Shown here: one piece after another, positions 19,670 through 32,654 of the stretch
Numbering within the stretch: position 1 is the stretch's first letter
How the letters are laid out: every line of letters begins with the position of its first letter
From: an uncultured Prevotella sp.
GTDB taxonomy: Bacteria > Bacteroidota > Bacteroidia > Bacteroidales > Bacteroidaceae
NCBI GenBank assembly: GCA_946186945.1
Contig: CAMHPC010000015.1
Span: 1-32,654 of the forward strand
Reading direction: 5' to 3'
DNA: 32,654 nucleotides
The notes under the pieces: model-generated
Told to the model about the DNA's origin: nothing
Database searches by the model: none
The model's input: the letters and a program-made list of their open reading frames with translations, nothing else
Translations under genes and position numbers: made by a program

Positions 19670-19972
19670 ATGATTACTAAGATTGAAGAAATCGACGGCA
19701 AGTACGTTGCCACTCTGAAAGGAGAAATGGATACCGCTGCCGCGAAAGAGGCAGAGGAGGTACTGAAACCTCTCTACACCTGCGAAGGCAAGGATGTGAT
19801 TATCGACTGTAGCGAACTGGAGTATATCGCATCAAGCGGTCTGCGCATACTGCTCGCCATACTCAAAGGTGCCAAGAGCAAAGGCAGCAGAGTGGTGATG
19901 CGCGGCGTGAACGATGACATAAAGAACGTGTTCAAACTCACAGGATTTATCAATATCTTCGAGTTTGAATAG
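19670..19972 (+). CDS. STAS domain anti-sigma factor antagonist
   Basis: VIIDCSELEYIASSGLRILLAILKGAKSKGSRVVMRGVNDDIKNVFKLTGFINIFEFE. Confidence 0.92.
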   Translation: MITKIEEIDGKYVATLKGEMDTAAAKEAEEVLKPLYTCEGKDVIIDCSELEYIASSGLRILLAILKGAKSKGSRVVMRGVNDDIKNVFKLTGFINIFEFE

Positions 19973-21775: not shown

Positions 21776-21839
21776 CCGATACTTAATACTCATTCTCAAA
21801 GAAAAATGGACATCAAAATGCGTCAAGTTTTCTTAGTTT

Positions 21840-22371
21840 AAGACAGCTGGAGATTTGGTAGCGGGAGGCATTGCTGTTAAGCTGGGCAGGGATAGCGGCG
21901 AAGATACGGGCAACTTTTCCCGAAGGATCAATCTTGTTGAAATCTTCGTCATAGATATTCAGGACAAGACGCTTGGCCTGGTCAACTGCTTCGAAATTGT
22001 TAGTATCAAGATAGGCATTAACAGCCTGAGGCATACCCCCCACTAACATGTACATACGGAAATCGCGCATCAGTTTACGGTGGGCATCCTTTAGCGGCTG
22101 AGGGTATTCCCACACGCTGCGAAGCAAAGGTATGGTGGCCGTATCGCCCAATGCCCAACGAAACTCCTCGTAATCCATCGGATACATATTGACACGCTCT
22201 TCCTCGCTTGGAATCAGAATGTGATCCGTGTTCTTGCGGATAGAAATCAAAGAGCCGGTTTCGATATAGTCGTAACGATGATCGCCGACAAACGACTTGA
22301 CGGCTTGGCGAGCCTTGGGCTGAAACTGCACCTCGTCGAAAATGATGAGCGACTTGCGCTCCTTCAGTTGG
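21840..22371 (-). pseudogene. Internal fragment of an AAA_14/DUF4143 ATPase
   Basis: Minus reading HVQLKERKSLIIFDEVQFQPKARQAVKSFVGDHRYDYIETGSLISIRKN...YPMDYEEFRWALGD...LVGGMPQAVNAYLDTNNF...PAQLNSNASRYQISS. Walker B is present; Walker A and the C-terminal part are missing. Confidence 0.8.
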
Positions 22372-22550
22372 ACGTGATAATCGAGTGTCAGGGACTGGAG
22401 TACATAGCATCGAGCGGCCTGCGCATACTGCTCGGCATACTCAAGGGCGCCAAGAGCGGCGGCAGCAAGGTGATGCTGCGCAATGTGAACGACGACATAA
22501 AGAACGTGTTCAAGCTCACTGGTTTCATCAACCTATTCGAGTTTGAGTAA
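22371..22550 (+). pseudogene. 3' half of a second STAS-domain gene
   Basis: DVIIECQGLEYIASSGLRILLGILKGAKSGGSKVMLRNVNDDIKNVFKLTGFINLFEFE, paralogous to 19790-19972; the 5' half is replaced by antisense ATPase sequence. Confidence 0.85.
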
Positions 22551-22752: not shown

Positions 22753-23874
22753 ATGACAAATAATCCTTTTATACTATATGGCTATGAGTCGGAAGAGTAT
22801 TTCTGCGACCGAGAGAAAGAAACAGCACATCTAATGAGGCTGATAGACAATGGCAACAATATATCGTTGATAGCACCACGCAGGATAGGAAAGACGGGAC
22901 TGGTGGAACACCTGTTTCATCTTCCAGAAATCAGGGAAAGGTATTACACCTTTATTATCGACATCTATGCGACTAAGAGTTTGGAAGACCTGATTATGGC
23001 GATGGGCAGTGCCATGCTGTCTACCCTTCGGCCTTTTGGAGCGAAAGTGATGAAGAAATTCACCGATTTTCTGAAGTCTCTTCGTAGCGGTATTTCATTC
23101 GACCCGATGGGCAATCCGTCATGGAATGTGGAGTTAGGCGACATTCGTACTCCAAGAGTCACGCTCGATGAAATATTTCAGTACATTGAGAATGCCGATA
23201 AGCCTTGCATTGTGGCAATAGACGAATTTCAGGCCGTCAGCTCTTACCGCGACAGCAACGCCGAAGCTATGCTAAGAACATACGTGCAGCACTGCCGCAA
23301 TGCCAATTTCATTTTCTCCGGTTCACAGCGAAGAATGATGAGTGAAATATTTCACAACTATGCTCGTCCTTTCTACCAGAGCACCACCTCTATGAAACTG
23401 GACTGCATACCCTCTGAACGATATTTGCAGTTTGCACAGGAACATTTTCTGAGGGCGGAGAAATCGTTAAATCCTGACGTGTTTCACCTGGTGTATGAGC
23501 GATTTGACGGCATTACATGGTACATTCAACGAGTGATGAACGAGTTGTATGCCATCACACCATCCGGCGGCTCATGTACACCAGACTTGACAGAAACAGC
23601 CATAGACAACATATTGAGATCTAACGAATTCAGTTATCAGTCGCTCCTGTATCAGTTGCCGCCAAAACAGAAAACACTGTTCACGGCCATTTGCAAGTCT
23701 GGTAAGGCGACCTCCATCATGTCGTCTGATTTCATCCACCGCTGGCACCTGCCGTCATCGAGCAGTGTACAGGCGGCCATAAAAGGACTGTTGGAAAAGG
23801 ATTATGTGACCGAATCTCTCGGTGTTTATGAAGCATACGACAAATTTTTCTCTCTATGGATGGTTCGACAATGA
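22753..23874 (+). CDS. AAA family ATPase (archaeal-ATPase/STAND-like, IAPRRIGKT P-loop)
   Basis: MTNNPFILYGYESEEYFCDREKETAHLMRLIDNGNNISLIAPRRIGKTGLVEHLF, IVAIDEFQAVSSYRD, FIFSGSQRRMMSEIF. ORF start 22726 overlaps the -7 box, so ATG 22753 is preferred. Confidence 0.88.
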   Translation: MTNNPFILYGYESEEYFCDREKETAHLMRLIDNGNNISLIAPRRIGKTGLVEHLFHLPEIRERYYTFIIDIYATKSLEDLIMAMGSAMLSTLRPFGAKVMKKFTDFLKSLRSGISFDPMGNPSWNVELGDIRTPRVTLDEIFQYIENADKPCIVAIDEFQAVSSYRDSNAEAMLRTYVQHCRNANFIFSGSQRRMMSEIFHNYARPFYQSTTSMKLDCIPSERYLQFAQEHFLRAEKSLNPDVFHLVYERFDGITWYIQRVMNELYAITPSGGSCTPDLTETAIDNILRSNEFSYQSLLYQLPPKQKTLFTAICKSGKATSIMSSDFIHRWHLPSSSSVQAAIKGLLEKDYVTESLGVYEAYDKFFSLWMVRQ

Positions 23875-23883
23875 ACTTAGGAG

Positions 23884-25194
23884 TCACTCATCCATAGCGA
23901 GACGCAGGCCGAGGCGGTCGCTGCGATAACCTGGTGCACGACCGTCGCGGTTTGCCACACGACAGTTGTCAGGACCACCATTCCACCCGCCACCCCGTAT
24001 GGCACGAGTAGAACTGGAGTACGGTCCCGTGGGGTCAACCTGACCGTCACTATCATAACTGCCGTACCAGTCAGAGCACCACTCCCACAGGTTACCCGTC
24101 ATGTCATAGAGACCTAACTCATTGGGTGATTTCGAGCCAACCTCGTGTGTACGAGAGCCACTTGTAGCAGAATACCACGCCACACTACCCACACTGTTAC
24201 TGCCACTATATGTATAGCCACGGCTATTGTTGCCTCCTCTGGCAGCAAACTCCCATTCCGCCTCTGTTGGCAGTCGGAAATGCTTCCCCGACAGGTCATT
24301 CAGCTTTTTGATAAATGTCTGACAATCGCGCCAACTCACATTATCAACAGGCCTGCGGGCACCTCTGAACCGTGACGGGTTGTTTCCCATCACCGCCTGC
24401 CACTCTTCCTGTGTCACCTCACAACGACCGATGCGAAACGATGATAGCGTCACATTGTGTACCGGCCATTCATCATCACCAGCACCGGCACTTTGCTCAC
24501 TGGTGGCACCCATGAGGAAGGAGCCACCATTCAGCGGCACCATATTGTTGACAATGCCCCGGACGATAGCGTCTCGCTTGTCAGTTGACGGTTCTTCAAG
24601 GACCAGATCTTGTGAAGATGTTTCAGGCGCAGCCGTTTCCTGCAACGGCCGTTCGGCAACAGTGGCAGTGTTCGGTGTGTCCTCTTTTCTTAGCAACAAG
24701 ACCAGGAACATTGCCACGATGCCAGCAGCAAGAGCACCGATGACAGCATATAGCCATTTGGAGGAAGATGGCTTTTCGGGATAATAATCCTCTCCGTCAT
24801 TATTGAAATGAGTTGGCGAAGAATTCTCTACTTGACCGACGGGATAGCCACACTTGGGGCATTTCACCGCTTTATCGGAAATCATATTCCCACATTCGGG
24901 ACATTGAATAAGTGGCATATTGAATCCATATTCTTCTGGAGTCTGAGTTCCCTCGTCGCAAGGAGCCATGTCCTCCTGGCTTGTACCAATATCATCATCC
25001 ATAATAGACTCCTTCATAGATTCATCTGTTACAAACAAGAAAGCCAACTCTTCGACTTCTTCGGCATGCTTCCATTTATCCATCCCCTTACACCATACCA
25101 GCGTTTTCGGACCCACATCAAACATGACAAGGTCATTAACTAGGATGGGACCTTGACGTGTTCTATTCTTATCCACATAATAATATACTTTCAT
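23884..25194 (-). CDS. GYF_2 + zinc ribbon + TM + formylglycine-generating-enzyme-like (SUMF) protein
   Basis: MKVYYYVDKNRTRQGPILVNDLVMF...LVWCKGMDKWKHAEEVEEL; CPECGNMISDKAVKCPKCGYPVG; WLYAVIGALAAGIVAMFLVLLL; GGSFLMGATSEQ...FRLPTEAEWEFAARGG...GNLWEWCSDWYG...RAIRGGGWNGGPDNCRVANRDGRAPGYRSDRLGLRLA. ORF start 25221 is TTG; ATG at 25194 preferred. Confidence 0.88.
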   Translation of the reverse strand: MKVYYYVDKNRTRQGPILVNDLVMFDVGPKTLVWCKGMDKWKHAEEVEELAFLFVTDESMKESIMDDDIGTSQEDMAPCDEGTQTPEEYGFNMPLIQCPECGNMISDKAVKCPKCGYPVGQVENSSPTHFNNDGEDYYPEKPSSSKWLYAVIGALAAGIVAMFLVLLLRKEDTPNTATVAERPLQETAAPETSSQDLVLEEPSTDKRDAIVRGIVNNMVPLNGGSFLMGATSEQSAGAGDDEWPVHNVTLSSFRIGRCEVTQEEWQAVMGNNPSRFRGARRPVDNVSWRDCQTFIKKLNDLSGKHFRLPTEAEWEFAARGGNNSRGYTYSGSNSVGSVAWYSATSGSRTHEVGSKSPNELGLYDMTGNLWEWCSDWYGSYDSDGQVDPTGPYSSSTRAIRGGGWNGGPDNCRVANRDGRAPGYRSDRLGLRLAMDE

Positions 25195-25327
25195 GGTATT
25201 ACCATTAAGTCGTTCTTGCAAACTTTTCTATACTAAATGAACCTTCAAGTTCTTTTATCTTTACTTTTCCGCTAAGTATATCGAAGAAGAAAGAACGTAT
25301 CCGCTCAATTGTAAGTAGTGCAGGTTT
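24832..25327. repeat. 496-bp direct repeat, copy 1
   Basis: Read line by line against 26540-27035 (offset 1708); no mismatch seen. Diverges at both ends (c/t before 24832; ata versus tcc after 25327). Confidence 0.95.
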
Positions 25328-26902
25328 ATAATCGTTACCGTTCCATTTGACAAGATAAATATCGTCAATCAGTATATCATATACCCCATTCGTTTTGGAT
25401 GTCAAAAAAGTTATTTCATAACCACCGCCAATGTTGTGGTCTGTTACTCTTCCGTCTGACCAGTAAATTTTTTCAATGAATACATAACGGCCCCATCCAC
25501 CAGCATGTGACGAGTTGCTTGTGAATACAAGGAGCTCGTCTTCTCCATCTCCATTAATATCGAAATAAATTTGCCTTGTTGCGTCTTGTTCAGAACTTTC
25601 TTCATTGAAAACGCTCATGTGGGTGAATGTTTTTTTCGCAGAAGCTATTTTCTTCCTATTAGAATCATGTTTAACAACTTTAGAACCATCAAAGCAATAT
25701 GTTTTCCGTTCTATCCCATATTTGAAAGTAAAAAGCCATTTGTCGTTTTTATACTCTACTTTGACGTCATCTTTTCCTAGATACCACCAACCTTCATCGT
25801 CACCTAAATCAATTGGATCAGTCATTTTGAATTTCCTGCTCCCTTCATCATAATAAACCACACAAAAATACGAGGGAGTATGGGCACCACCCAATTCATC
25901 ATATTGCAACAGACAATCATTTATTCCATTGCCATCATAATCGTGTTCATCAATTATCATCAACTGATAACTGCCAATACCCGTCTTTACACGTTTTCCA
26001 TTCAGCATAACACCGAGATATACAGGATATTCATCGTAGTCCGTTTCTTCTATCACGTTATAGTTCTTCACCATGTTTGCCCTCTTATTTACTGTATTCT
26101 TATACTCTTCAATCTCATTTTCATTACCCACAAACACGTATGTGCCTTTGACGTAGCCCTCTATGTTGCCCTGTCTTATTTTGTACCAATCACCTTCTTT
26201 GCCCAACACCTCCGCTGCATCACCACCAGTCATCAATTTACCTATAACCGCAGCGGAGACAGAGGGAGTTTCACGAATATTCAAAAAACCTCCTTCCGTG
26301 GTAGACAAAGCATAGGTTTTTTCTTTCTCCTCCACTTGCTCTGAAGTCATTTCTGATGAAGAATCACCTGCTGTTGTTTCCTGTGAGGCAGAGTTTCTCA
26401 AGAGCAAGATTATCACAGTTACCAATGCTACCACCAATATTCCTATAATGGCATAAATCCATTTTCGGGAGGATGGCTTTTCAGCATAATAATCCTCTCC
26501 GCCATCATTGAAACTGCGAGTTGGCGAAGAAACTAGTGTTTGACCGACGGGATAGCCACACTTGGGGCATTTCACCGCTTTATCGGAAATCATATTCCCA
26601 CATTCGGGACATTGAATAAGTGGCATATTGAATCCATATTCTTCTGGAGTCTGAGTTCCCTCGTCGCAAGGAGCCATGTCCTCCTGGCTTGTACCAATAT
26701 CATCATCCATAATAGACTCCTTCATAGATTCATCTGTTACAAACAAGAAAGCCAACTCTTCGACTTCTTCGGCATGCTTCCATTTATCCATCCCCTTACA
26801 CCATACCAGCGTTTTCGGACCCACATCAAACATGACAAGGTCATTAACTAGGATGGGACCTTGACGTGTTCTATTCTTATCCACATAATAATATACTTTC
26901 AT
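25205..26902 (-). CDS. GYF_2 + zinc ribbon + TM + SH3b + Ca-binding-like protein, C-terminus shared with upstream gene
   Basis: Same N-terminus as 23884..25194; SH3b TTEGGFLNIRETPSVSAAVIGKLMTGG...GDWYKIRQGNIEGYVKGTYV; DYDGNGINDCL and DINGDGEDELLVF; last 38 aa ALLTIERIRSFFFDILSGKVKIKELEGSFSIEKFARTT identical to the 26913..27884 product. Confidence 0.85.
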   Translation of the reverse strand: MKVYYYVDKNRTRQGPILVNDLVMFDVGPKTLVWCKGMDKWKHAEEVEELAFLFVTDESMKESIMDDDIGTSQEDMAPCDEGTQTPEEYGFNMPLIQCPECGNMISDKAVKCPKCGYPVGQTLVSSPTRSFNDGGEDYYAEKPSSRKWIYAIIGILVVALVTVIILLLRNSASQETTAGDSSSEMTSEQVEEKEKTYALSTTEGGFLNIRETPSVSAAVIGKLMTGGDAAEVLGKEGDWYKIRQGNIEGYVKGTYVFVGNENEIEEYKNTVNKRANMVKNYNVIEETDYDEYPVYLGVMLNGKRVKTGIGSYQLMIIDEHDYDGNGINDCLLQYDELGGAHTPSYFCVVYYDEGSRKFKMTDPIDLGDDEGWWYLGKDDVKVEYKNDKWLFTFKYGIERKTYCFDGSKVVKHDSNRKKIASAKKTFTHMSVFNEESSEQDATRQIYFDINGDGEDELLVFTSNSSHAGGWGRYVFIEKIYWSDGRVTDHNIGGGYEITFLTSKTNGVYDILIDDIYLVKWNGNDYKPALLTIERIRSFFFDILSGKVKIKELEGSFSIEKFARTT

Positions 26903-27035
26903 GGTATTACCATTAAGTCGTTCTTGCAAACTTTTCTATACTAAATGAACCTTCAAGTTCTTTTATCTTTACTTTTCCGCTAAGTATATCGAAGAAGAAA
27001 GAACGTATCCGCTCAATTGTAAGTAGTGCAGGTTT
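26540..27035. repeat. 496-bp direct repeat, copy 2
   Basis: See copy 1 (24832-25327). Confidence 0.95.
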
Positions 27036-27884
27036 TCCATCTTTATCAGTCCCGAGGTCATAGGTTTTCAGTGTCTGCGGTCCCAGCGCTGCTGCCGTGA
27101 GAAGGAAATGATTTTGGAATCTGTCTGTATCTATCAAATCTGCAGCCAAAACTTTACCTACTACGCTATAACTATGAAGTGATCGTTGTTGTTCACCGTC
27201 AGTCAGCACTGTATGCAAATCATCAGACGCAGGGTTTATTTCAATCCGTCCACTCTCTTCACTTTCCTCTTGATGTCTATACAATGATCCAAGATCAGCC
27301 AGTGCAAGAGAATATACATGTGTTGTTTTAGTATAGTTTACACGTTCTGTGCTGAATACAGAAGGCAACAGCAAATTGACATTGCCGTCTAATTCGACAA
27401 GAGGCGAAATGAAAGTTCCGACGATGCAATCCTTTACGAATAGGGTTTGTGTAGCAAAGACGCCACCTATTACGACGCAGTTCTCAAGTGTTATTTCATC
27501 ACCATAAAGACTCCCTGCTACAAAAGCATTGCTCAATGCTATTCTTTTAGCATTAACATCTGAGCAGAAAGTTGTCATACATTTCATCGCCCTAGAGACA
27601 ACAGAGGAAGCCGAGCCAACGGCTTTTCGGAATGTCACAGTTCCAGAGACATCATTGTTAATGTATAATTCATGTAGAGTGAACACCGCACCATTCACTT
27701 CTAATGGTGCAGCTTCTATTGTTAGTTTATCAGCATAAAGAGGTCCCTCTACAACCGTTTCGCCTACTACATTTACGGTTCTGGAAAGTTCGGACATCTT
27801 ATTAGGCAGGATACCGCCTTTTACGATATTATTATCTAAGCGGATATTAGTGTCTGTCAAATGGATTTCCTTTAAATTATTCAT
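26913..27884 (-). CDS. Bactofilin-like / beta-helical repeat protein
   Basis: Repeating short strands: VNVVGETVVEGPLYADKLTIEAAPLEVNGAVFTLHELYINNDVSGTVTF...LYGDEITLENCVVIGGVFATQTLFVKDCIVGTFISPLVELDGNV. Confidence 0.6.
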   Translation of the reverse strand: MNNLKEIHLTDTNIRLDNNIVKGGILPNKMSELSRTVNVVGETVVEGPLYADKLTIEAAPLEVNGAVFTLHELYINNDVSGTVTFRKAVGSASSVVSRAMKCMTTFCSDVNAKRIALSNAFVAGSLYGDEITLENCVVIGGVFATQTLFVKDCIVGTFISPLVELDGNVNLLLPSVFSTERVNYTKTTHVYSLALADLGSLYRHQEESEESGRIEINPASDDLHTVLTDGEQQRSLHSYSVVGKVLAADLIDTDRFQNHFLLTAAALGPQTLKTYDLGTDKDGKPALLTIERIRSFFFDILSGKVKIKELEGSFSIEKFARTT

Positions 27885-28917
27885 GATTATTAATTAATTT
27901 ATTTAACATTTTATTTATCATTGCCCTTACTCTTATTGAATGATTGTCGTCTCCACTGAGTTTATTGGCAATTTCTGACTGCATATATGACTGAACAGTA
28001 TCAGAGACACACATGCCAATTTCTTCCAACTCTATTTCATCAAGGGTTTCACATAGTTTGTCCTTCAATGATTTATTCTTGAAATATAAATCAGGAATGA
28101 AACATTCTCTTTTTACTCGTTCAGACTCTGATACTGTTTTCAAGAAACATACAGGAATAAAATAGTTATCATCACCTGTTCCCTCAACGGAAGTTTCCTG
28201 GATAGTCTTTTCTGAAGTTGCTTTTATTTTCAAAAATGCTTGCGCCTGACTCATAGCCTCCAAAGCGTGATTCTTCACAGTTGCAGCACTAATCTGAGCT
28301 TGCAACACACTGCTCTCTTTGCCCATGGTAACAGCGGTCTGAACCATATCAGTATGAAGCATTCTATCACTCTGGGTGTCTACCGCCTTTACGAGTTCAA
28401 AAACAGGTTTGTCTACTTCATGAATCCTAACAGAGAGTTCGTTATTCAGATCAGCAAAGAGTTTCTGGTATCTTGCAGATGTTCGTGCATAATCATCTGA
28501 CATCTTTTTTTGTTTATTACGTAGTGTTGCTGCTTGCTGCCGAAGGAGCAGAAGCCTTGCTTCTATGACCTGTTCCAGCTCTGCCTGCTGTGTAGATAAA
28601 TCTGTACGAACAGTATGAAAGAATCCGTCAATTATAGACTTAGATATTTTATCAGCATTCTCTGTTATCGCAATGCACTGTGCGGCATTCATGGCACCGA
28701 CACTTGCAGTAAGCCCGTTAACAGAACTATTACAACTCTGAACACCTTCTTCAAATGGTGAAGTATCAACATAAACATCTACATCTACATCTTCATAGGC
28801 AGTACCGCTATAATTTACGTTCAGGGTACCTCCAGATTGAGATGCCGGATAGCTTACTGTTTTTGAACCACTATAATGACAAGATACAGTTTGTCTAAAT
28901 CTTCTTCTATACCCCAT
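27877..28917 (-). CDS. Coiled-coil protein, paralogue 2, with Gly/Ser/Tyr-rich N-terminal extension
   Basis: MGYRRRFRQTVSCHYSGSKTVSYPASQSGGTLNVNYSGTAYEDVDVDVYVDTSPFEEGV...; overlaps the downstream ORF by 8 nt; aligns by eye to 28928..29836. Confidence 0.75.
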   Translation of the reverse strand: MGYRRRFRQTVSCHYSGSKTVSYPASQSGGTLNVNYSGTAYEDVDVDVYVDTSPFEEGVQSCNSSVNGLTASVGAMNAAQCIAITENADKISKSIIDGFFHTVRTDLSTQQAELEQVIEARLLLLRQQAATLRNKQKKMSDDYARTSARYQKLFADLNNELSVRIHEVDKPVFELVKAVDTQSDRMLHTDMVQTAVTMGKESSVLQAQISAATVKNHALEAMSQAQAFLKIKATSEKTIQETSVEGTGDDNYFIPVCFLKTVSESERVKRECFIPDLYFKNKSLKDKLCETLDEIELEEIGMCVSDTVQSYMQSEIANKLSGDDNHSIRVRAMINKMLNKLINNHE

Positions 28918-28927
28918 AAAGAATAAT

Positions 28928-29836
28928 TTAAAGTGTTTCTATATTTGCCGAGGAATACATCTCTTTTATAACATTCTTCACCCTTGGCGAAGAGCTGGAA
29001 GTTTCGAGGATATGAGAGAACTCTTCAGTGATTTCTGCTGAGGAACCTTCTTGACGCCAAGGTAAGTCCGTTTCGTTTCTTATGAAGTCACCGATAGACG
29101 CCAAATTGGAACCTACGATCTGACCATTAGCTACCACTTTCATTTGCGGGATTCCTACCGAGTTATCGATGGTTTCCCATACAATCACCGGTATCTGATA
29201 CGCTTTATCTTCATTTCCCTTAAGGTTGCTTATCAAAACTTTATCTGTCAACACTCTTTGTTCGCCTATTTGCAATAGGAAATTAGCGGATTGTTCTAAA
29301 GCTGATTTTGCGTTATACTTAATTCTGGAAACCAATATTTGCTGGCTTTGATAAAGCCCTTCAGTCTGTGATGTCGAAACACAACCGATCAGAGCGTGCA
29401 TTCTATTCGATGCTGTGACCATGTGTTTGTTAACAAATTCAAAAACCGGTTGATCCAGTTGGCGTATTCTTTGTTCGAGTCCTTTGTTGATAACAGTAAA
29501 AATACGAAGATAGCGTTCAGTTATTCTACCATATTCACGTTCCATATTAGCTTTTATGCCGAGTAATTGACGTTTTTGTTGAGCCAACTTCATCAACAAT
29601 GCTTCAACACGACTTTGTTTGTTTGCAATCTTCTGTGAAATTTGCGATTGTAATAACGCAAAGAAACCACGGTTAACGTTTTTGCAGACTTTATCAGCAC
29701 TGGCATTTTCTGCTGCAATGACAGCGCTCTCCATCGCTACTACCGCCGCCGTTGTCCCCATAACATGTTTAGAAACACTTCGAAGTTCATCAGCCATTGG
29801 AGTGGTATCAACCTCACATGGAATTAATGTTGCCAT
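28928..29836 (-). CDS. Coiled-coil protein, paralogue 1
   Basis: VDTTPMADELRSVSKHVMGTTAAVVAMESA...RITERYLRIFTVINKGLEQRIRQLDQPVFEFV; preceded by AGGAG Shine-Dalgarno-like sequence. Confidence 0.75.
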   Translation of the reverse strand: MATLIPCEVDTTPMADELRSVSKHVMGTTAAVVAMESAVIAAENASADKVCKNVNRGFFALLQSQISQKIANKQSRVEALLMKLAQQKRQLLGIKANMEREYGRITERYLRIFTVINKGLEQRIRQLDQPVFEFVNKHMVTASNRMHALIGCVSTSQTEGLYQSQQILVSRIKYNAKSALEQSANFLLQIGEQRVLTDKVLISNLKGNEDKAYQIPVIVWETIDNSVGIPQMKVVANGQIVGSNLASIGDFIRNETDLPWRQEGSSAEITEEFSHILETSSSSPRVKNVIKEMYSSANIETL

Positions 29837-29878
29837 ATTTATTCTCCTAAAAAATATTAAACAATATTACACACGATA

Positions 29879-29941
29879 TCATTTAGACAATGGGGGTTGC
29901 CATTTTGAAGGGGAAGGGTTACTGCCACCTCCTTTTGACAT
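29879..29941 (-). CDS. Putative 20-aa peptide MSKGGGSNPSPSKWQPPLSK
   Basis: ATG on minus strand at 29941, stop TGA ending at 29879; starts 10 nt after the stop of the 672-aa ORF in an otherwise unexplained ~115-nt gap. Confidence 0.4.
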   Translation of the reverse strand: MSKGGGSNPSPSKWQPPLSK

Positions 29942-29951
29942 TTCGAAAGTA

Positions 29952-31898
29952 TCAAACTTCATCGGGAATATCTGGGATGTCATCCTCATCAGGTATATCC
30001 CCTTCTTCAATATCAAAATTTTCATTGTTGGCCATCTTAGATTCTTCTACATTATCTATTGTAATATTACTAACTGCGTCTAATGCAGTAACAGCAAGGG
30101 ATGGAAGATTAAGGGAAAGGTGCTCAAAAGTCACATCCTCTACATTTGGTTCTGGCAATAGTACTGATTCTTTTGCAAGCAATGGGTTTGTAAAAGCGAG
30201 AGGTTTACGACGATTATCAAGATTTTGAACTTCTCCTGCCGCTATTGCCATTGAATTTGAATAGCCATCCTGCAAGCGTGCATCGTAAAACTCCACATGG
30301 CCAAATTTTTCGGCTTTCAGAGCTATGTCTTCCTGAAGCCTGTCCATATAATCACAAAACTCATCCTGTACTCTTTTAAATTCTATTGCCTGATTTTCAA
30401 ATGCGGCTAGTGTTTCGGTACTATTATCCTGTTTCTGAACGATGGTCTTATCCAAAGTTGCTCCTTCCGTTTCCATATTTTCTAGTGTTTTCTGCAGTTG
30501 AGACAATGTGTTATAAGCTTCTACATATTCACTTAAAGTCTGTTGCATGTTGTTAATGATGTCTGCACTTTCTGCGTGATTAGAGCGATAAAAAGCATCT
30601 ACATCTTGATGCCACTTATTCAAATAGCTAATCTTTTGATCGTGTATTTGGCTATAAATACGGATACGCTCTACTCGATTTTCCATCATAAGACGTTGAA
30701 CCATTGGTGCTACGATTTCCTCATAGATTTGGTGGACCCCAAAAGGAACACTTGCACTACTATTATCTTCTGCCATCCACTCATCAGCAAAAAGATTATA
30801 TCGTACGCGTGAACTTTCCCGAAGTTGAAAAGGTTCATATCCCTGGATCGAATCTGCATAATCAAAACGCTCGTTGCGAATTCGCATTATTTCTTCCGCT
30901 TCAAGAAGTGGTGAATAATGATTATAAGGCGACTTAAGAATTCTGAACAGCAAATCGTTCGACTTATTTACGACTTTATCCGTGGAAGCCAATTTCAAAG
31001 CCGAAATGGTTTGTACTGACATTGCCATGGTATGCATAAGGTGTTTTAGCACATCCTCGAATTGCTCTGTATCACTTGACAACGAGTCCTTGAGTTTGTT
31101 CAATTGGCAGAAATCATTAATTTCATTATCATATTTCTTATCGTCAAAGATGTTAACTACAGGATGATTACCAGGGTCGCTGGTTGTATATTCATCCAAG
31201 AACGCCAAATAATCACTGTTACCTGCCACTAATGGCAAATCAACAGATTTCACTTCCGTATCGTTCATGCAGTATGAAATAGTACGAAGTGACCTATCAA
31301 GTTTACCCACATAATCACTTTGCGTAACTTCCTGTATAGAAAGTGAATAATCGTTTGTATCAATGCTTTCTGCTTCATTAGAAGTTTCAACAATTGGTGC
31401 TTCTAAGGTAAGATTCTCCATCTGCGACATTGTTTTCGCTAGTAAATCACTTTGGCGAGGCAACTGCAAGCTCACTCTAGAAAGAGGGACATTACCTGTG
31501 TAGTCAACCACAAAACACCTGTCTTCGTATGACATTTGACGTGCGACAGGAATATAGGCTACACCCATTTTTGTCACCTTATAATCCCTAAATATATTAG
31601 CATACTCTGTTTGTTTCTCTGCAATCTTTTCATCAATTGCCTCGATTTGCCTATTATACTTATTACGGCGTATCCAAAACATGAAGAATGCCACAATCGT
31701 CAAGAACCATTTCCAAATATCACTTTTTAAAAGTTCCACCTGTTCTCTGTCCGACTGCAGCTGTTGTATTTGCATTTCTAAAGTTTCTTCTTGTCGAACA
31801 ATACGTTCTGCTGCCTGTTCATAAAAATTGAACAACAGCCGAGCCTGATCTTGATAGATGTTGCTCGAATCATTGAATATCTTTCCTGTTGTTGACAT
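29952..31898 (-). CDS. Large TM + coiled-coil protein with acidic C-terminal tail
   Basis: MSTTGKIFNDSSNIYQDQARLLFNFYEQAAERIVRQEETLEMQIQQLQSDREQVELLKSDIWKWFLTIVAFFMFWIRRNKYNRQIEAIDEKIAEKQ; tail EEGDIPDEDDIPDIPDEV. ATG 31898 preferred over 31970, which overlaps the upstream gene. Confidence 0.75.
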   Translation of the reverse strand: MSTTGKIFNDSSNIYQDQARLLFNFYEQAAERIVRQEETLEMQIQQLQSDREQVELLKSDIWKWFLTIVAFFMFWIRRNKYNRQIEAIDEKIAEKQTEYANIFRDYKVTKMGVAYIPVARQMSYEDRCFVVDYTGNVPLSRVSLQLPRQSDLLAKTMSQMENLTLEAPIVETSNEAESIDTNDYSLSIQEVTQSDYVGKLDRSLRTISYCMNDTEVKSVDLPLVAGNSDYLAFLDEYTTSDPGNHPVVNIFDDKKYDNEINDFCQLNKLKDSLSSDTEQFEDVLKHLMHTMAMSVQTISALKLASTDKVVNKSNDLLFRILKSPYNHYSPLLEAEEIMRIRNERFDYADSIQGYEPFQLRESSRVRYNLFADEWMAEDNSSASVPFGVHQIYEEIVAPMVQRLMMENRVERIRIYSQIHDQKISYLNKWHQDVDAFYRSNHAESADIINNMQQTLSEYVEAYNTLSQLQKTLENMETEGATLDKTIVQKQDNSTETLAAFENQAIEFKRVQDEFCDYMDRLQEDIALKAEKFGHVEFYDARLQDGYSNSMAIAAGEVQNLDNRRKPLAFTNPLLAKESVLLPEPNVEDVTFEHLSLNLPSLAVTALDAVSNITIDNVEESKMANNENFDIEEGDIPDEDDIPDIPDEV

Positions 31899-31917
31899 AA
31901 GATAATAGATTATATTG

Positions 31918-32529
31918 TTAATACCTTTTCCTTCTTGATAAAATACTTTCAAGATTATCAATTTCTTCAAAGATTTTTTCTTTGTTTAATGTTGTATTTT
32001 TCATTAAGACCTTCAGGTCCTTGACAGATTGGACGAATTGATATTCCAAATTCTTTGCATCTGCATTTGACGTTGGACTAAGATAGCGAATAGAATCACA
32101 CAGAGACAATATTCTACATTTAATTGACTCGTCAATTTGTTGAGATGCAGGAACTTCGTCCATAAGATCATTCATAACATTTTGCAATACCATTTTTCCT
32201 CCGACAATTATTTGTTCCTTTTCATAAATTTGCTGTACTTTTACACCAGAATGCAATGTGGCGACACGCCCCATTATTAAGATGAGAAATAAAGCTAAAT
32301 GCCCCATTAGCTGATACTTGAATTGTATCTGATTGACAATGCTCCAAACGATGAACCCCATTGAAAACAAGCAATATACGCTCAGAGCAAACATGTGTAT
32401 CCCCATCATTCCTACCTCTTTGTGAGCAGGTTTGTCGAGATTAACAAGTGGGAACAATAAGAATTGAACAAATTGTGTAAGAACAATGCAAGAAACGACT
32501 ATATCAAGTATTTTCACCTCGCATTCCAA
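31918..32529 (-). CDS. Multi-TM protein with C-terminal helical region; true start likely further upstream
   Basis: Hydrophobic segments ILDIVVSCIVLTQFVQFLLF, MFALSVYCLFSMGFIVWSIV, LMGHLALFLILIMG. The frame stays open upstream (KLNQSVAELRIYTILGIFLGYGLIIGGFTILGES). Confidence 0.65.
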   Translation of the reverse strand: MECEVKILDIVVSCIVLTQFVQFLLFPLVNLDKPAHKEVGMMGIHMFALSVYCLFSMGFIVWSIVNQIQFKYQLMGHLALFLILIMGRVATLHSGVKVQQIYEKEQIIVGGKMVLQNVMNDLMDEVPASQQIDESIKCRILSLCDSIRYLSPTSNADAKNLEYQFVQSVKDLKVLMKNTTLNKEKIFEEIDNLESILSRRKRY

Positions 32530-32654
32530 GGATTCTCCAAGGATTGTAAAACCTCCAATTATAAGTCCATATCCAAGGAAAATACCAAGTATTGTATATA
32601 TCCTTAATTCCGCAACACTTTGATTTAACTTTATTTATAAGTTCCTGAGCAACA

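Follow-up and report, generated by a model that had tools for sequence, protein, structure and literature searches.

A perfect 496-bp direct repeat in an operon with interchangeable membrane-protein cassettes is probably the footprint of one recent, one-ended recombination. The repeat is located in the window, that is, the whole stretch of 32,654 nt that was analyzed, which represents the complete contig C15 of a MAG of 185 contigs (89.6% complete) from a Prevotella-like bacterium. Base-by-base extension of the match revealed that positions 24832–25327 and 26540–27035 are identical, with 0 mismatches and an offset of 1708 bp, exactly as the initial annotation had reported. The 95% upper bound for the divergence between the copies is 0.6%, and the identity is not a matter of chance, because the probability of 0 differences in 496 positions at 20% divergence is about 1e-48. 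A third copy was not found in the whole 2.65-Mb assembly, which contains one matching pair only; the two-copy state is that of this fragmented MAG assembly. Both copies are coding on the minus strand. Each comprises, in this orientation, 40 codons from the end of the upstream gene (KPALLTIERIRSFFFDILSGKVKIKELEGSFSIEKFARTT), a TAA stop codon, a 10-bp gap (TGGTAATACC), and 121 codons of a GYF/zinc-ribbon gene (120 + 3 + 10 + 363 = 496). A gene end, a short gap, and the start of the next gene (about 120 codons) had thus been recognized correctly beforehand, whereas the gene end had been counted as 38 codons instead of 40. The features of the region are compiled in Table 1.

Table 1. Features of the repeat and of the surrounding operon (positions in the window).
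Feature	Position	Strand	Basis
Derived repeat copy (R2), made up of the borrowed tail that ends the SH3/FG-GAP gene, the 10-bp gap, and codons 1-121 of the GYF-ZR-TM-FGE gene	24832..25327	(-)	Exact 496-bp identity with R1; tail foreign at that place, as judged from relatives
Repeat copy with native tail part (R1), made up of the final 40 codons of the bactofilin-like gene, the 10-bp gap, and codons 1-121 of the GYF-ZR-TM-SH3 gene	26540..27035	(-)	Exact identity; tail conserved in 10/10 homologues
GYF_2 - zinc ribbon - TM - FGE-sulfatase-like gene, 436 aa	23884..25194	(-)	Pfam, gene model, GC3 (0.51 beyond R2)
GYF_2 - zinc ribbon - TM - SH3_3 - FG-GAP/VCBS-like gene (565 aa) that carries the borrowed bactofilin tail	25205..26902	(-)	Pfam, gene model, relatives
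Bactofilin-like protein (323 aa), putative beta-helix, to which the tail is native	26913..27884	(-)	Homologues; weak sub-gathering Pfam Bactofilin match in the G295 homologue; AF2 pLDDT 80.7, mostly strands
Remaining conserved core: 346-aa, 302-aa, 648-aa coiled-coil and small TM genes	27877..32529	(-)	Gene order shared with 10 other genomes; Pfam scan of the copy in G295
Linker flank beyond R2, homologous but diverged; its paralogous counterpart lies at about 26451-26539	24746..24831	(-)	Self-blastn and codon comparison
Non-homologous junction at which the FG-GAP/VCBS-like domain ends and continues in frame into the bactofilin tail, plausibly at a shared AAA codon	25327..25328	(-)	Relatives stop 0-3 codons away; upstream flanks of the repeat without similarity

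The two ends of the repeat differ in nature. At the linker end (24832/26540), both genes enter a TM linker that is clearly homologous but diverged, as already noted in the initial annotation: 21 of the 46 aligned codons are identical, and the remainder comprises 9 synonymous and 16 amino-acid differences. The homology on this side extends to about position 24746, at about 63–87% per 30-nt block. The comparison of synonymous sites along the two genes, which had been suggested as a check, showed differences in 0 of 121 codons inside the repeat vs. 9 of the 30 conserved linker codons (Fisher p = 1.6e-7). At the 25327/27035 end no homology of the flanks was detected; the sequences adjoining the two copies there are unrelated, and the non-homologous join plausibly lies at a shared AAA codon.

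The repeated gene end reveals the polarity of the event, which is seldom possible from a single genome. In all 10 homologues of the bactofilin-like protein from other genomes, the 40-residue tail can be aligned without a break from the remainder of the sequence, with 14–20 of 39–40 residues identical; it is therefore native to this gene. For the FG-GAP/VCBS-like domain, the relatives in the genomes G162, G198, and G044 end with YRWDGNQYK, YRWDGKQYKKQ, and YRWDGKQYKQQ, respectively, each followed directly by the stop codon. These stops are located 0–3 codons from the junction, where the gene in the window reads LVKWNGNDYK and then continues into the tail. Thus, the tail was added in frame at the native stop codon, or at most 3 codons from it. 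Judged from these alignments, the tail is foreign in the SH3/FG-GAP gene (25205–26902), which runs in frame into the 40 borrowed residues. Because the tail is native in one place and foreign in the other, the copy at 24832–25327, at least its tail part, is on the same grounds the derived one. Ownership of the tail by the bactofilin-like gene also gives the event a direction, with the bactofilin end and the GYF start as the template. The AF2 model of the bactofilin-like protein shows the tail as a strand and a helix with a low-confidence end, all within a larger C-terminal region. Because the modelled tail is a fragment of this region, it is likely to be a passenger in the SH3 protein, the predicted structure of which (pLDDT 45.8) is too poor to inform on the tail.

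In the event that we propose, the end of the last core gene (the bactofilin-like gene), the 10-bp gap, and the GYF-zinc-ribbon start of the first cassette would have served as the template, and the product would be a second copy of this stretch ahead of the linker of the FGE cassette. One end would have been guided by homology in the zinc-ribbon/TM-linker region that is common to the cassettes, and the join at the other end would have been non-homologous, placed directly at the SH3/FG-GAP stop codon and probably mediated by AAA microhomology. As a result, the SH3/FG-GAP gene would have received the bactofilin tail in frame, and the second cassette would have gained the operon's own translation start. 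Two versions fit this scheme: either an FGE gene that was already resident might have acquired a new start, or an insertion might have placed the SH3 cassette ahead of it in a displacement similar to that of Rhs tips. Both cassettes stay complete genes because the copied segment holds the start codon together with its natural upstream context; in this way, a single homologous anchor can equip an operon with a complete, translatable gene. Recombination between R1 and R2 could, in turn, cleanly delete or amplify the 1708-bp cassette.

The architecture of the two ends points to homology-facilitated illegitimate recombination (HFIR) or to a one-ended conversion. The new segment has homology at one end (the diverged linker, 24746–24831), no homology or microhomology at the other (unrelated flanks, shared AAA codon), and its template sits in the same operon. 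Gene conversion is characterized by homology flanking both sides of the tract, whereas here it was found on one side only. A close strain with the pre-event state was not found among the genomes surveyed (397 others of the genus, 392 others of the order), and we therefore infer a single event and its timing. In a DNA search of 199 relatives, the matches were mostly to FGE.

On the minus strand, the order of the operon is small TM gene, 648-aa coiled-coil gene, 302-aa gene, 346-aa gene, 323-aa bactofilin-like gene, SH3/FG-GAP cassette (565 aa), and FGE cassette (436 aa). The core, headed by an SPFH-zinc-ribbon gene, was found in 3 other genomes of the genus (among 397), all of them distant, and in 7 genomes of the order (among 392 others; the 7 are full-length carriers, and G419 has a short, weak match). 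Its distribution is patchy, and it is shared with other Bacteroidales families. The contig of the window ends before the position at which the SPFH-zinc-ribbon gene is expected. In most of the related genomes the bactofilin-like gene closes the operon, and in G295, G148, and G767 it is followed by zinc-ribbon genes. The assignment of this gene is based on homologues and on the model, which consists mostly of strands predicted with good confidence; a fold search against the PDB gave no significant match. The Pfam Bactofilin model (PF04519) reached 20.5 bits with the homologue in G295, below the gathering cut-off of 27.9, and the Pfam scan gave no PF04519 match for the protein of the window. The C-terminal domain of the large coiled-coil core protein of G295 (L087 7742–10054) is that of ribosomal protein L7/L12. 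As far as a limited literature search shows, this SPFH-zinc ribbon/coiled-coil/bactofilin-like operon and its cassettes appear to be little described.

The operon (23884–32654) is AT-rich within GC-richer surroundings. Its GC3 is about 0.33, compared with 0.64 for the neighbouring genes, and it was therefore probably acquired. The cassette bodies differ in composition. The SH3/FG-GAP body (0.36) is similar to the core (0.33; p = 0.32), whereas the FGE body beyond the repeat has a GC3 of 0.51 (p = 5e-5 vs. the SH3 body, 1e-9 vs. the core), which is lower than that of the host genes (0.64; p = 2e-5). This departure from both the core and the SH3 body suggests that the history of the FGE ectodomain differs from that of its operon, and the GC3 of its body may partly reflect a history of its own. 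The shift in GC3 occurs at the point of exit of the second gene from the repeat, which is located only approximately because windows of 20 codons are noisy. Near the onset of the drop in GC, the 3' end of a STAS anti-sigma-antagonist-like gene (19670–19972) is repeated as a truncated remnant (19792–19971 and 22370–22549; 81.7% over 180 bp), possibly an older insertion scar. It is adjoined by an ORF at 21813–22331 that by eye resembles a truncated ATPase/DUF4143-type gene, and beyond this ORF lies an ATPase_2 gene of intermediate GC3 (22754–23874).

Several other explanations of the repeat were considered. If the entire 1708-bp unit had been freshly duplicated in tandem and had then diverged, the constant offset would be accounted for, but a fresh duplicate would match throughout, whereas the identity stops at 24831/26539, the linkers are only partly similar beyond the repeat, and the downstream domains, SH3/FG-GAP and FGE, are unrelated. 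The initial annotation had already argued against this origin, and we rejected it on the basis of the codon comparison, which shows divergence beyond the repeat; it is hardly conceivable. The initial annotation had proposed instead a recent gene conversion or recombination between older paralogues. The contrast of the synonymous differences inside the repeat and in the linker agrees with a recent recombination and with paralogous genes. However, a conversion confined to the two GYF genes does not account for the 40-codon tail and the gap, and it leaves unexplained how two unrelated genes came to be joined at the other end, so plain paralogue conversion was also discarded. An origin by assembly artefact, in which the short-read metagenome assembly merged strain variants or mis-resolved the repeat, deserves attention in view of the 185 contigs and 89.6% completeness of the MAG and of an exact repeat that exceeds the typical length of short reads. 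Yet, the in-frame junction of the FG-GAP domain and the tail must exist in the reads however the repeat is resolved, and assemblers usually collapse exact repeats or break at them rather than invent copies; the arrangement of repeat, body, and repeat would be a natural path through the assembly graph. We regard an artefact as very unlikely.

The possibility that the SH3 cassette arrived on a circle, as in the model for rhs tips, is more difficult to dismiss, although we still consider it unlikely. A 1708-bp circle comprising the repeat and the SH3/FG-GAP body would have integrated by a single homologous crossover into a lone repeat between the bactofilin-like and the FGE genes, and would have pushed the FGE cassette downstream. 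Such an insertion yields exactly the observed order of repeat, body, and repeat with identical copies, it agrees with the circular-intermediate model for rhs tips (PMC2935791), and closure of the circle would account for the junction of body and tail. However, it requires a prior, circle-forming event with the same non-homologous junction, and no phage, plasmid, or viral carrier was found: the repeat had no match in phage records, the 1708-bp unit none in plasmids, and the bactofilin-like and GYF-ZR proteins none in viral contigs. The PADLOC models for anti-phage defence gave no match for the nine proteins scanned. Lastly, the tail might be a functional sorting or interaction module that is shared within the system, the identity of the repeat being kept by selection or by repeated conversion. 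The tail is indeed conserved in the bactofilin-like family and is in frame in the fusion. Against such a role, it is modelled as a fragment of a larger region and not as a self-contained domain, it is found in no other cassette gene examined, and the synonymous sites and the gap are identical as well, which goes beyond what selection at the protein level requires. There is thus little to favor this explanation, and the one-ended recombination remains our preferred reading.

A second genome suggests that such an exchange may recur. In G143, an array of zinc-ribbon-TM genes is located downstream of a Tubulin_2-GYF operon. The array (L033 and L090, G143:C15) contains about 10 such genes with differing ectodomains and shared N- and C-terminal modules, the C-terminal module being repeated with 85% over 277 bp. 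In two of these genes, which have different ectodomains, the zinc-ribbon codons exhibit 0/28 synonymous differences vs. 11/45 downstream (p = 0.005). This is a weaker parallel, as the stretches are short, include one amino-acid difference, and lack a duplicated tail. Further near-identical pairs of the ZR module were not found in nine other genomes of the genus, in two of which (G183 and G091) the module was not detected. If exchange of this type were recurrent, it would explain how arrays of membrane proteins that begin with the same zinc-ribbon module but differ in their ectodomains are built in Bacteroidales. The arrays would then grow by the exchange of modules that carry the start codon, with the 5' zinc-ribbon module as the recombination anchor, and new ectodomains would be gained in the form of complete genes downstream of unrelated host operons (SPFH/bactofilin-like in the window, tubulin-like in G143), making the process a gene-gaining relative of Rhs tip displacement. 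At present, we regard this generalization as rather doubtful.

Taken together, the recombination scar is well polarized and of a known mechanistic type, while its host operon is little described; it is a clear example of the growth of a modular gene array, and not a new kind of system. The displacement of C-terminal tips of Rhs proteins (Jackson et al., 2009, PMC2935791) is similar in that a constant 5' module is combined with variable 3' modules, identical core fragments are repeated beside different tips, and the variable parts have a distinct GC content. Unlike in Rhs, the repeated core includes the start codon and the end of the previous gene, and the cassettes are complete genes rather than orphan tips; there is also no toxin and no Rhs core here, Pfam detecting GYF_2, zinc ribbon, SH3_3, and FGE, but no Rhs or YD-repeats. 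In T6SS clusters of Vibrio cholerae, stepwise insertion of effector-immunity modules has been described, for which homology-facilitated illegitimate recombination was proposed (Kirchberger et al., 2017, PMC5361080). One homologous anchor and one non-homologous join (as proposed there) and the accumulation of cassettes downstream of a conserved operon are common to both cases; however, no T6SS, effector, or immunity gene is present here, and the polarity is derived from a duplicated gene tail. During pneumococcal transformation, repeat-containing DNA generates tandem duplications by inter-chromatid bridging between sister chromosomes (Johnston et al., 2013, PMC3784515). The involvement of repeat-containing DNA in a tandem duplication is similar, but there the bridge is formed by incoming DNA, and the duplications span about 100–900 kb between pre-existing repeats, compared with 496 bp and one non-homologous end here. 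With regard to function, the closest comparison is the PspA-YdjGHI system of Bacillus subtilis (PMC8581546), in which the SPFH-zinc-finger protein YdjI acts with its membrane partners YdjG/YdjH and with PspA in envelope stress. The SPFH protein there, which has a C-terminal zinc finger and is encoded together with the membrane proteins that place it at the membrane, resembles the product of the SPFH-zinc-ribbon gene that heads the related operons. Unlike in B. subtilis, no PspA was identified here, and the coiled-coil, 302-aa, 346-aa, and bactofilin-like genes have no demonstrated counterpart; membership is not claimed. As a lead, the analogy suggests a possible role of the operon at the membrane, in which its cassettes may be zinc-ribbon-anchored envelope sensors or effectors.
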